Shown here piece after piece: positions 1,627-4,707 of a stretch of 30,210 bases of DNA; within the stretch, counting starts at the first letter, position 1; the number at the start of each line of letters is the position of its first letter. Below the pieces are notes generated by a model that worked only from the letters and a program-made list of their open reading frames with translations, had not been told where the DNA came from and did no database searches. The stretch lies in the IMG/VR virus record IMGVR_UViG_3300042555_000660, positions 1-30,210 of that record. The stretch is one strand, 5' to 3'. The position numbers were made by a program, and so were the translations under genes. This DNA is from a virus.

Positions 1627-2627
1627 GTTGTTTGGGGTTTGGGTTGGTTTTTGCTGGCGAGGTATTCGCGCCTGACGGACTCAGGCCACGTTTTGAATGG
1701 GAACGTCGAAGCTGTGGGGTGGACTTCTAGTGAGTCCGGATATTCCTGAGACCGCCACGCGAAGGCGTCGGCCTCGTCGATGTCCGTCTTGGGCTTAGGC
1801 TTTGCCGTCGGTGAGAATGCCGGGGCGTCCTGCCATCTCCTCTCCGAGATCCATGTCTCGGGTGAGGGGATGAACTTGCCGTTGTCCTGCCGCCATTCTT
1901 TCGACTTCTTGAACGCCTCCAACGACCGGATGAGATCATCCTGTGGCGGGAGAGCGTGGATTGATGAAGAGAATGCCGACTGCGCCCGGTAGAGGTTTTT
2001 GCGTCGGTTTTCGGGGTATGCCTTCCAAAACTCCGAAAAGCGTTGCTCGATCCGATTCACCGATGGTGTTTCTTGCGTCGAGGATACGGCTAAAACTGAT
2101 GATTGGCTTCCGTCAATGTCTCCACCGCGGACTGCTGTTTTTTCTCCTGTTTTTTCAATCCTCGACGATACCTCAACCATCACCACATCCTCCTCCACCC
2201 CCTTGGGGGGTAGGGGGGATATATTGGTTATTGGTTTATGGTTATTGGTTGGCATTGGGGTAGCATTGGGGGGGCTATCCAACCCCATATGGGTGTCGCA
2301 TGGGGGGGCCATAGCCCCCCTATGGCCCCCCCATCGTGCCTCTGCTCCTTTTTTGCCTCCCTCGGTTTGCTTTTTGAAGTTACGGATCTCCTTGTCAGCC
2401 CTTTCGTGACTCCATCCGCCGCTGATGCTGGTGAAAAACTCACCGAGGATAGCAGCGACGACATCATCGGGCATCCTGACCCTCCGTGCGATGGTCTTCA
2501 GGTCGGGCAGATCCCCGTCCTTGTCATAGTAAAGGTCCAGCAGGCGGCGGTAGCACAGATCCTCGTCGTTTGAGAGGTGAGCCGTCGCGCCCCGGTAGTC
2601 GCCGATGTGGAAAGAGAAGTAATTCAT
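1623..2627 (-). CDS. Replication initiator-like protein, DUF1376/YdaU N-terminus, 334 aa
   Basis: The N-terminal ~95 residues follow the DUF1376 (YdaU) pattern: FSFHIGDYRGATAHLSNDED, then YRRLLDLYY, an EFF motif and WSHERAD. A low-complexity Pro/Asn-rich linker follows. The C-terminal part (FWKAYP..., then FIPSPETWISERRW) resembles the DNA-interaction domain of phage replication initiators. Such proteins usually recruit host replication functions at an origin. The start at 2627 (MNYFSF) matches the family start. The linker DNA holds direct repeats and a 15-bp hairpin (see 2226-2334), as in lambda O, where the origin lies inside the gene. No helicase or polymerase is encoded nearby, so host enzymes are presumably used. 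Confidence 0.75.
   Translation of the reverse strand: MNYFSFHIGDYRGATAHLSNDEDLCYRRLLDLYYDKDGDLPDLKTIARRVRMPDDVVAAILGEFFTSISGGWSHERADKEIRNFKKQTEGGKKGAEARWGGHRGAMAPPCDTHMGLDSPPNATPMPTNNHKPITNISPLPPKGVEEDVVMVEVSSRIEKTGEKTAVRGGDIDGSQSSVLAVSSTQETPSVNRIEQRFSEFWKAYPENRRKNLYRAQSAFSSSIHALPPQDDLIRSLEAFKKSKEWRQDNGKFIPSPETWISERRWQDAPAFSPTAKPKPKTDIDEADAFAWRSQEYPDSLEVHPTASTFPFKTWPESVRREYLASKNQPKPQTT
2226..2334. other. Probable replication origin inside the initiator gene
   Basis: The coding DNA of the linker contains two 11-bp direct repeats (GGTTATTGGTT at 2226-2236 and 2240-2250), two 9-bp direct repeats (GCATTGGGG at 2252-2260 and 2263-2271) and a perfect hairpin with 15-bp arms at 2300-2314 and 2320-2334 around a 5-nt loop. 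Just upstream (about 2195-2220) are G/C tracts. The encoded peptide is low complexity, so the DNA rather than the protein seems to be constrained. The lambda origin inside gene O is the precedent. Confidence 0.55.
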
Positions 2628-2682
2628 GCGAGAATTAGCTCCGCTTGGTTCAGATTCCACGCCGGCCCGAAGTTAATGCGTC

Positions 2683-3411
2683 CTACTTCCATGTTAAAAT
2701 CCTCCATGCTGTTGCTGCCATTTGAGGAACCTGGGCATTCCCAACGGCGCGAGTTCGCTCCACCCTTCGGGGAATCCCATTCGCACTTCCGAATGAGTCG
2801 GGTGCGGGTATGTCATGCCGAACTTTAGCTTCACATAGTCCCGCCATTGATCGAATCGCTCCCTCCCGTTGTCCTTTCTCCGAGAGGTAGTCCCACCCTT
2901 CCAATCGGTTGCGATTGGGGTTGGCAACAATCCAGATTCGTTCTCTTCGGTGATCGTAACCGGCGAAGTTAGCCCCCAACACTCCCCATTGAGCATCATA
3001 CCCCATTGAGGCCAAGTCCCAGAGAACTCTTCCAACCCCCCGAATAGTGAGTGCTGGCGAGTTTTCCACGAAGACTCCGACTGCGGGTTGAACCTCGCGA
3101 ATGACCCTTGCCATCTCGGCCCACAGTCCTGATTGATCTCCTTCGATTCCAGCCCCCCCCCCGGCAACGCTGATGTCGGTACATGGGAACCCCCCTGCGA
3201 TGACATCGACTTTGCCCCTCCATTCGATCCCGTTGAAATCTCGGATGTCTCCGAAGATTGGGAAGGGAGGTAGTATTCCGTCGGCTTGTCGCTGTTTGAG
3301 GACTGCTTGGCAGTAGGGTTCGATTTCAACTGCTGCGACAGTTGTGTGTCCGAGGAGGTGTCCACCAAGGATGCCTCCACCGGCTCCAGCGAAGAGGTGT
3401 AGTTCGCGCAT
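2683..3411 (-). CDS. DNA cytosine-5 methyltransferase, compact, 242 aa
   Basis: The product transfers a methyl group from S-adenosylmethionine to C5 of cytosine. Visible motifs are I (FAGAGGG, 7-13), IV with the catalytic Cys77 (GGFPC, 73-77), VI (ENSP, 116-119), VIII (RRERIWIVA, 155-163) and IX/X (RTRAVGNAQVP, 219-229). At 242 aa it is short for the family, and only about 55 residues lie between motifs VIII and IX/X, so a normal target recognition domain appears to be missing. The start at 3411 (MRELHLF) fits the family; longer upstream readings overlap another gene. There is no restriction enzyme partner, so it probably protects phage DNA from host restriction. A second long frame covers almost the same DNA. 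Confidence 0.9.
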   Translation of the reverse strand: MRELHLFAGAGGGILGGHLLGHTTVAAVEIEPYCQAVLKQRQADGILPPFPIFGDIRDFNGIEWRGKVDVIAGGFPCTDISVAGGGAGIEGDQSGLWAEMARVIREVQPAVGVFVENSPALTIRGVGRVLWDLASMGYDAQWGVLGANFAGYDHRRERIWIVANPNRNRLEGWDYLSEKGQREGAIRSMAGLCEAKVRHDIPAPDSFGSANGIPRRVERTRAVGNAQVPQMAATAWRILTWK

Positions 3412-3416
3412 ATCAT
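2694..3416 (-). CDS. Overlapping-frame ORF within the methyltransferase gene, 240 aa
   Basis: An open frame of 240 codons runs through nearly all of the methyltransferase gene in another frame of the same strand. Its ATG (3416) lies 5 nt before the methyltransferase ATG and overlaps the TGA of the preceding gene; both ATGs can share one AGGAG. The first ~90 residues are Ser/Thr-rich. From residue 97 it reads like a structured protein: DCGPRW, SWKT, TWPQWGMM, GECW, LLPTPIATDWKGG, then HPTHSEVRMGFPEGW near the end. I associate these motifs with phage methylase-linked proteins. It could be a real nested subunit, or a frame that looks conserved only because the main frame is. Confidence 0.5.
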   Translation of the reverse strand: MICANYTSSLEPVEASLVDTSSDTQLSQQLKSNPTAKQSSNSDKPTEYYLPSQSSETSEISTGSNGGAKSMSSQGGSHVPTSALPGGGLESKEINQDCGPRWQGSFARFNPQSESSWKTRQHSLFGGLEEFSGTWPQWGMMLNGECWGLTSPVTITEENESGLLPTPIATDWKGGTTSRRKDNGRERFDQWRDYVKLKFGMTYPHPTHSEVRMGFPEGWSELAPLGMPRFLKWQQQHGGF

Positions 3417-3661
3417 GCGAGGCAAAGCTCCTGTTGTGCGAAGGCGCAATCGCGGATGAAGTAGGAGGCATGGCGCTTCCCTGCCTTGGAACTGACCATG
3501 ACTTCCTTAATATCGTGACCGGCCCTCCGTAGTTCGTGGACACGGGCGGCGAGTCGGAAGCATCCGTACTCGTTGAGGGCATCCAGCGCCGTGAGAGGCT
3601 TGCCAGAGAGGAGGTGATCCAGAATAACCTGGGCTTGAGTCGGGTTGCTGTGGGCGCTCAT
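3413..3661 (-). CDS. Small helix-turn-helix protein, 82 aa
   Basis: The sequence NPTQAQVILDHLLSGKPLTA followed by DALNEYGCFRLAARVHELRR resembles the phage helix-turn-helix family that Pfam calls HTH_39. This is followed by a basic segment (SSKAGKRHASYF). It is likely a DNA-binding accessory protein. The start at 3661 is supported by AAGGAGGG about 5 nt upstream and by an overlap with the stop of the nuclease gene. Its TGA overlaps the ATG of the alternative methyltransferase-frame ORF, so all three frames are probably translated from one message. Confidence 0.75.
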   Translation of the reverse strand: MSAHSNPTQAQVILDHLLSGKPLTALDALNEYGCFRLAARVHELRRAGHDIKEVMVSSKAGKRHASYFIRDCAFAQQELCLA

Positions 3662-4707
3662 TTTGCCCTCCTTTCCTGCACGAGGCTGATCGTCCCAGCC
3701 CCCTCGGTGATGGCGCATGGAAACGGCTCCGTGGTAAAGTCTGCCCATGCTTTCTGCAGCCCCTTTGCATCAACCTTTAGGAACGGGGCAAGCTTGGCTA
3801 TCCCCATGCCTTTAAGGACTTTCAGAAGCACCTCCTCGGCATCGACCGATTCGCTGCCCTTCCGGTTCTGAAGCCTCCACCCGGGGACTTCCTCGCCAGC
3901 CTCGATGGCAGCCTTGACCTTATCGCTGACGGCGAGATCCTTGAAGATGGCTTCAAGCTTCTTGAAGGCTTGCAGGGCCATTGCTGCATTCTGAGGCGAC
4001 GCCTCGATCCACTTGCGGCTTATCGTAGCCGGGAGAGCATCGACCACTGTCAGGGCCGTCTCTGCTGGCTTTACCCAGACCGAACAAGACTCACGGCGAG
4101 CGCACCAGTTGCACCCGTCATTCTCCTGCGGTTGCTGGGAACCATCCTTTAGACGCTCAAAGATCGGAAGCACGATTGCCTCGGCCTCCTGCCTTGTGAA
4201 GGTAGCAATGTGATATTCCGTCTCCGGGTCATCGAGTGGAATGATTGCGACCTGACAATAATCTACTTGCTCGTGATCCATCAGCATTAGCCCATAACAG
4301 GCAAGCTGCTCGGTATAGGCTTCAGGCCCGGCGATCATCGCGCCTGACTTAAAGTCAACGATGGTCAGGATCTTCTCCCCATTTTCATCCTCCTCGCTTG
4401 AGTATCCCCAGGCGTCAATGGTTCCAAAGTTTAGCTCCTCCAAGTCTTCATTCAGGAGTGAGAACTTCTGCTCAACACCCCGGAGTGCATTGATGAGTTT
4501 GTAAAGGCGATCAACTCCGCGCAGGGCCTCCGGTTCAGCATGGGGAGCCTTGCTAGGGCTCCCGCTGAAGTTGAGGGTATCGGCGATCTGCTGGTGAAGC
4601 ATCGTCCCCCTGCCTGCCGCTTCCCCGGCGGCTTTGCCGCCGAGGAAGTGAACGCATTTTGCCAGCTTGGGAAGGGTGCTTGGTCCGTGTGGATGGTGAT
4701 CGCTCAT
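3658..4707 (-). CDS. Cas4/RecB-like PD-(D/E)XK exonuclease, DUF2800-like, 349 aa
   Basis: The likely role is to resect double-stranded DNA ends for the annealing protein encoded just upstream. Visible features are an N-terminal His motif (RGTMLHQQIAD), the core GTIDAW, then TIVDFKSG with Asp and Lys, and EQLACYG, followed by a cysteine cluster CNWCARRESC. With the early Cys in LAKC this could hold a 4Fe-4S cluster as in Cas4 and AddB. The start at 4707 (MSDHHPHG) has a strong AAAGGAGG and overlaps the stop of the RecT-like gene. The C-terminal ~120 residues are helical and unassigned. Phage DUF2800 proteins fit best; a true RecE or lambda Exo relative is less likely. Confidence 0.8.
   Translation of the reverse strand: MSDHHPHGPSTLPKLAKCVHFLGGKAAGEAAGRGTMLHQQIADTLNFSGSPSKAPHAEPEALRGVDRLYKLINALRGVEQKFSLLNEDLEELNFGTIDAWGYSSEEDENGEKILTIVDFKSGAMIAGPEAYTEQLACYGLMLMDHEQVDYCQVAIIPLDDPETEYHIATFTRQEAEAIVLPIFERLKDGSQQPQENDGCNWCARRESCSVWVKPAETALTVVDALPATISRKWIEASPQNAAMALQAFKKLEAIFKDLAVSDKVKAAIEAGEEVPGWRLQNRKGSESVDAEEVLLKVLKGMGIAKLAPFLKVDAKGLQKAWADFTTEPFPCAITEGAGTISLVQERRAK

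Follow-up and report, generated by a model that had tools for sequence, protein, structure and literature searches.

At a single locus in the phage fragment analysed here, one C5-cytosine methyltransferase is very probably split between two polypeptides, alpha and beta, that are translated separately from frames 0 and +1 of a shared piece of DNA. The source record (IMG/VR record IMGVR_UViG_3300042555_000660; the whole stretch of 30,210 nucleotides is hereafter referred to as the window) is a phage fragment; its genes include those for terminase, portal, tape measure, RecT and exonuclease, along with RusA-like and primosomal genes. The computational evidence shows that each of the two frames is coding, identifies the one under selection in every segment, and establishes that the start arrangement is conserved. 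Expression, complex formation, activity, the function of the beta segment as a recognition domain, the target sequence and an anti-restriction role are inferred in the absence of protein or methylation data. We further consider it likely, as a joint proposition, that the locus represents a widespread phage and prophage class with near-co-extensive same-strand frames and 0, +1, 0 switching of the selected frame, in which (i) conserved ambiguous starts (ATG/GTG-A-ATG or ATGATATG) set expression, with recurrent use of dual starts, (ii) recognition cassettes were exchanged with both frames open, and (iii) motif X hopped between frames at least four times. Long same-strand overlaps with both products conserved have rarely been documented in bacteria and their phages.

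The features of the locus in the window, all of which lie on the minus strand, are the following:

2683..3411, minus strand: alpha subunit, the C5-cytosine DNA methyltransferase frame, 242 codons plus stop (242 aa), with motifs I-VIII and X
2694..3416, minus strand: beta subunit, the +1 frame protein, 240 codons plus stop (240 aa), with a target-recognition-like segment and motif IX
3409..3416, minus strand: paired start codons ATGATATG (beta ATG 3416-3414, alpha ATG 3411-3409), read from the sequence
3413..3748, minus strand: upstream gene of 111 aa, a conserved phage gene of unknown function (PHROG 4973), with its TGA stop at 3415-3413
3428..3432, minus strand: AGGAG, 11 nt from the beta ATG and 16 nt from the alpha ATG, read from the sequence
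2917..3411, minus strand: segment selected mainly in frame 0, encoding alpha motifs I-VIII; both frames are constrained over roughly alpha codons 96-165
2797..2916, minus strand: segment selected mainly in +1, the target-recognition segment of beta (LLPTPIATDWKGG...) over an unstructured alpha linker, as judged from identity, pLDDT and substitution pattern
2760..2780, minus strand: motif IX of beta, MGFPEGW, residues 213-219, from the beta alignment with invariant M213
2725..2742, minus strand: motif X of alpha, GNAQVP, residues 224-229, with invariant G224 and P229; codon-position counts indicate selection in frame 0 again

The two co-extensive frames of the original prediction, with ATGs 5 nt apart at 3416 and 3411, were thus borne out in both coordinates and frames, beta being in the +1 frame relative to alpha. 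In the enzyme that we propose, alpha would provide the AdoMet-binding and catalytic core (motifs I-VIII) plus motif X, and beta would provide the target-recognition-like segment plus motif IX; a single enzyme with the usual order of motifs I-VIII, recognition domain, IX and X is inferred to form from both. Across the recognition segment alpha would be an unconserved linker, open only to reach motif X, and across motifs I-IV beta would be a weakly conserved leader, open because beta starts beside alpha. Both frames in the window may be translated by re-initiation at the ATGA of the upstream gene, and in most relatives one Shine-Dalgarno sequence would serve ATG/GTG-A-ATG. The inferred function of the enzyme is most likely to shield phage DNA from host restriction.

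Residues 2-171 of alpha were matched by PF00145 (E=1.3e-30), and residues 1-238 matched PHROG 363 ("DNA methyltransferase"; E=4e-61). With P76-C77, E116-N117, R158, G224 and P229 invariant in the alignment, alpha meets the catalytic-core criterion for C5-cytosine methyltransferases, i.e., motifs I, IV (PC), VI (EN), VIII and X. It does not meet the criterion of a target-recognition domain and motif IX within the same chain, both of which map to the +1 frame. The beta protein of the window matched PHROG 1008 ("DNA methyltransferase"; E=1.5e-18), as did 49 of 49 aligned beta homologs. No match to beta was found in Pfam, and sequence searches of the PDB with beta and with a beta profile retrieved nothing relevant. 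Three elements are conserved in beta: SWKT-Q-SL...TWP-WGMM overlaps alpha motifs VI-VIII, PTP-x-D-KG falls within the recognition segment, and LNP...EW-MGWP-GWTDL corresponds to motif IX. As had been cautioned, the beta motif TWPQWGMM is the alpha segment DLASMGYDAQWG read in another frame, both coming from one stretch of DNA. The beta profile also matched gp55 of Mycobacterium phage Philonius just before motif X. This protein is a single chain in which the elements PTP-x-D-KG and LNP...EW-MGWP-GWTDL occur together with motifs I-VIII and X, and this arrangement therefore supports the assignment of the beta elements to the usual motif order. The Philonius locus itself (L095; gp55, 1670-3322) has an intermediate layout, with the later recognition modules, IX and X in frame 0 together with I-VIII, and with a 172-codon +1 frame that still has the first recognition modules. 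In the AlphaFold2 model of alpha, the catalytic core and the motif X helix are confident, and the core can be matched to M.HhaI across about 170 columns; residues 169-223 were mostly below a pLDDT of 50. The model of beta alone was poor (mean pLDDT 53). A subunit that acquires its fold on its partner would be expected to model poorly in isolation, and a recognition-domain fold is not shown by the prediction.

Homologous loci were collected from phages and bacterial genomes. A tblastn search with beta gave matches in 185 phage records. Searches with each of the two proteins provided 21 and 65 viral loci, and a scan of bacterial genomes with a tightened beta alignment provided 147 relatives, 80 of which were taken for analysis. 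The relatives from bacterial genomes were found in Pseudomonadota, Verrucomicrobiota, Planctomycetota, Acidobacteriota, Nitrospirota, Spirochaetota, Patescibacteria and others. Flanking genes in a sample of the bacterial loci matched PHROG integrases, a CII-like activator, a DNA primase and a head maturation protease, and several of these loci are therefore prophages. The doubly read gene recurs across many bacterial phyla, with well over a hundred phages and prophages carrying it, and the overlap between alpha and beta is typically about 200-490 codons. Among the loci with both profiles, beta and motif IX were in the +1 frame in essentially all, and motif X was in frame 0 in about 150 and in the +1 frame in five. 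Overlaps of roughly 430-490 codons were seen in four loci (L066, L067, L068, and L075), where the PTP-x-D recognition modules of beta are repeated and alpha runs open past them, apparently for no other purpose than to get to motif X.

The number of stop codons expected in beta was calculated by permuting the synonymous codons of alpha while keeping the alpha protein and its codon usage. For the window alone, the probability of an open beta frame under this permutation was about 0.003. No stops were observed in beta in 54 loci (254 expected), and only three were observed in 118 non-redundant homologous co-start loci (494 expected); taken across loci, the evidence against a chance open frame is overwhelming. 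Frequent stops in the second frame of homologous loci, which would have refuted the original prediction, were thus not encountered. The N-terminal part of beta was likewise free of stops in the co-start loci, with 30 expected over alpha codons 2-50 and 29 over codons 50-90. Seven loci in which beta starts internally served as a control, and here the unused stretch over codons 2-50 contained 17 stops, compared with 17.1 expected. For the reverse test the beta codons were permuted through the recognition segment and stops in alpha were counted. None were observed in the 125 loci with motif X in alpha (302 expected), and 30 were observed in the five loci with motif X in beta (38 expected). Since alpha is stop-free only with motif X in alpha, it is kept open only where motif X must be reached. 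The loci share ancestry and the summed stop counts are therefore not independent, which is why the contrasts carry the weight; the contrasts and the use of each locus in one pair only (see below) lessen the non-independence by descent and do not abolish it.

The frame under selection was determined segment by segment. Among the relatives with the same recognition segment as the window, alpha was 51-84% identical over codons 1-95 and beta 18-36%, whereas over codons 167-205 beta was 79-90% identical and alpha only about 56%; over codons 223-240 alpha was again the more conserved frame. The alpha frame is predicted to be disordered, linker-like and poorly conserved where a target recognition domain had been suspected to be missing, and beta as the supplier of specificity and motif IX, as had also been suggested, is the best fit to these identities, activity in trans being inferred. 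Codon-position spectra were compiled from 21 pairs, in which each locus was used once, by counting the differences at alpha positions 1:2:3. Over alpha codons 1-95 (motifs I-IV) substitutions fell mainly on alpha third positions (129:69:367), and the counts were 171:90:265 over alpha codons 96-165. They were 473:183:140 in the recognition segment, where substitutions fell mainly on alpha first positions, which are beta third positions, and 81:39:108 around motif X. The reversal of the spectra between segments was significant (chi-square, P about 1e-70 and 1e-19), and the selected frame switches 0, +1, 0 along the gene. Third positions of alpha codons, which normally vary most, vary least in the recognition segment. 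A lack of excess constraint at synonymous sites of the methyltransferase frame, a further observation that would have refuted dual coding, was therefore not seen, and the beta signal is not inherited from alpha. The warning that an alternative frame can inherit apparent conservation from the main one thus holds for some of the similarity and fails for the beta signal as a whole, in which the codon-position spectrum is reversed.

Three other explanations of the locus were weighed. That beta is merely a chance open frame, with conservation inherited from the methyltransferase frame, is hard to reconcile with three stops where 494 were expected, with none where about 59 were expected in the beta N-terminus of the co-start loci, with the stronger conservation of beta than of alpha in the recognition segment and with the reversed codon-position spectrum; the +2 control frame, moreover, has many stops and a weaker similarity excess. 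Inheritance does have an effect, as the +1 null identity was about 0.3 after permutation of synonymous codons at 65% alpha identity and the N-terminal 90 residues of beta exceeded the similarity of the +2 control frame only slightly. We nevertheless give this explanation practically no credence and regard it as ruled out by the stop and codon-position tests. Programmed ribosomal frameshifting could produce a single polypeptide by a shift from frame 0 to +1 after motif VIII and back to frame 0 before motif X, and the order of motifs in the DNA is indeed normal, with I-VIII, recognition segment, IX and X across frames 0, +1 and 0. Two shifts would be required, however, and beta should be unconstrained upstream of the shift, whereas no stops occur there and beta is conserved across alpha codons 100-165. 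The conserved start codons of beta would remain unexplained, as would the finding that alpha is stop-free in the recognition segment only with motif X in alpha. Such a fusion appears very unlikely and was ruled out because beta is already constrained ahead of any shift site and because its starts are conserved.

The remaining possibility accepts two subunits and takes beta to be accessory or regulatory, with specificity residing in alpha as reported for M.EcoHK31I, whose recognition domain was assigned to alpha in the published work (PMC3404938). The corresponding alpha segment in the window is only about 40 residues long, is predicted to be disordered and is less conserved than beta over the same DNA. 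In loci with motif X in beta, alpha just ends after motif VIII, and hence no recognition domain is kept in alpha. We consider an accessory role of beta improbable, and two separately translated subunits with the recognition segment in beta remain the preferred reading.

Under the two-subunit reading the initiation of both frames has to be accounted for. In the window the TGA of the upstream gene overlaps the beta ATG (ATGA, 3413-3416) and stops one base short of the alpha ATG. It had been proposed that one AGGAG can serve both starts, which is unlikely in the window because 11 and 16 nt are far for a Shine-Dalgarno sequence. Coupled re-initiation of both frames is likelier in this phage than a single shared Shine-Dalgarno sequence because the beta ATG overlaps the upstream stop codon. 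The poor Shine-Dalgarno spacing for both starts remains a caveat, and an alpha start farther upstream is not excluded (the frame is open from an ATG at 3582). Among the homologs, 83 of 136 loci have the beta ATG at position +4 relative to the aligned alpha start, usually as ATGAATG or GTGAATG; in the clade of the window it is found at -5 or -8 instead. Residue 2 of alpha is Asn in 81 loci and is encoded by AAT in 80 of these and by AAC in one, the codon AAT thereby creating the +4 beta ATG. Of the 88 loci having ATG, GTG or TTG at +4, 12 show a codon other than ATG or GTG at the aligned alpha start, and alpha therefore probably begins upstream in some of these 12. The commonest spacing of the detected Shine-Dalgarno sequences was 12 nt to the alpha codon and hence 16 nt to beta (39/70), which fall either side of the reported optimum of 13-14 (PMC9841429). 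In eighteen loci beta starts internally.

A comparable initiation site is known from Thermus rnpA-rpmH (AUGGAUG), where AUGs four bases apart in different frames give two overlapping proteins from one initiation site; according to the paper that added E. coli genes, it was the sole bacterial case described until then (PMC9841429). The loci studied here likewise have adjacent starts in different frames, commonly four bases apart. They differ in that the short rpmH is nested in rnpA and the products are unrelated, whereas the products here appear to be parts of one enzyme.

Recognition segments have moved between loci. The recognition segment of the window in beta is 79-90% identical to those of L002, L003 and L007 from other clades and only about 40% identical to those of its near neighbors L009 and L012, the catalytic part of which has about 80% nucleotide identity to the window. 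Three further loci (L016, L018, and L019) are 92-93% identical in motifs I-VIII and differ in their recognition segments. Such changes, as in these three loci, occur with both flanks near-identical and both frames open; differing recognition segments on near-identical backgrounds indicate that cassettes move while both frames remain open. Motif X is in beta in L052, L055, L062, L080, L153 and L166, and on the alpha tree this location requires seven changes, at least four of which are forced by well-supported branches. Exceptions with a broken frame are few. One stop is present in beta of L003, and alpha of L128, L129 and L141 has a stop before motif X; in a prophage of E. coli PCP07014 (L179) both frames are interrupted at almost the same point. 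Any of these broken alleles could still reflect a sequencing error.

The smaller polypeptide of M.EcoHK31I is reportedly encoded inside the larger one in another frame, with both polypeptides required for activity, and the beta protein of the window is similarly encoded in an alternative frame of the alpha gene. In M.EcoHK31I (YGGCCR) the larger polypeptide contains motifs I-VIII and X and the smaller one motif IX, and the recognition domain was assigned to alpha (PMC3404938). The original prediction had named this enzyme as a precedent. The motif layout agrees, with two polypeptides, I-VIII and X on alpha and IX on beta, but the location of the target-recognition segment does not, since selection and conservation map it to beta here. 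Further differences are that the overlap here comprises approximately the whole gene, with starts usually 4-8 nt apart, and that motif X was relocated to beta in some lineages. The layout of the locus resembles that of M.EcoHK31I, and membership in the same family is not claimed without a sequence-homology comparison. When E. coli genomes were searched with a relative from an enterobacterial phage, four prophage-like copies were recovered from chromosomes, and nothing carried the label EcoHK31I. M.AquI is a natural C5 methyltransferase that is split after motif VIII, its small subunit having the distal variable region, IX and X (PMC3404938). The enzyme proposed here would likewise be a split C5 methyltransferase; unlike in M.AquI, motif X is normally on alpha (the window and about 150 loci), so that the small subunit does not combine IX with X, and the DNA of the two genes is almost entirely shared. 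The loci with motif X in beta are AquI-like in content, yet overlapping.

A search of the open-access literature found no report of this arrangement as a widespread family. PHROG 1008 and PHROG 363 are catalogued as separate families, without any indication that the two overlap and belong to one enzyme. The public records examined (L088-L097, L178, and L180-L182) either annotated a single frame or had the beta start trimmed to avoid the overlap. Alpha alone was annotated in MW202462, MG592390, MW722521, MT584811 and E. coli PT62, and beta alone, as "hypothetical protein," in PP083311. Both frames were annotated in Samy, Bora and Katalie136, with beta trimmed in this way, and in SOVA965 a CDS named DNA-cytosine methyltransferase sits in the beta frame. 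The present analysis argues that specificity lies in the subunit that these records omit or truncate, and predictions of methylation motifs from alpha alone would seek target specificity in the wrong protein. It would also widen the single characterized case, M.EcoHK31I, into a broad group. Because more than a hundred homologs exist, the trade-off between two frames becomes measurable segment by segment, and loci in which one frame is released from a segment, where stops reappear, provide natural controls. The loci further represent a large natural set of dual start sites on which the ribosome's choice between closely spaced initiation codons could be tested.

Two additional families of unknown function, PHROG 26627 and PHROG 35493 (68-71 aa), matched beta in 44 and 43 of the 49 homologs, respectively. 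The matching region is the C-terminal part of beta (window 2694-2800, minus strand). Since they match most beta homologs, both families appear to represent short gene calls made within the overlapping subunit, as far as can be judged from these sequence matches.
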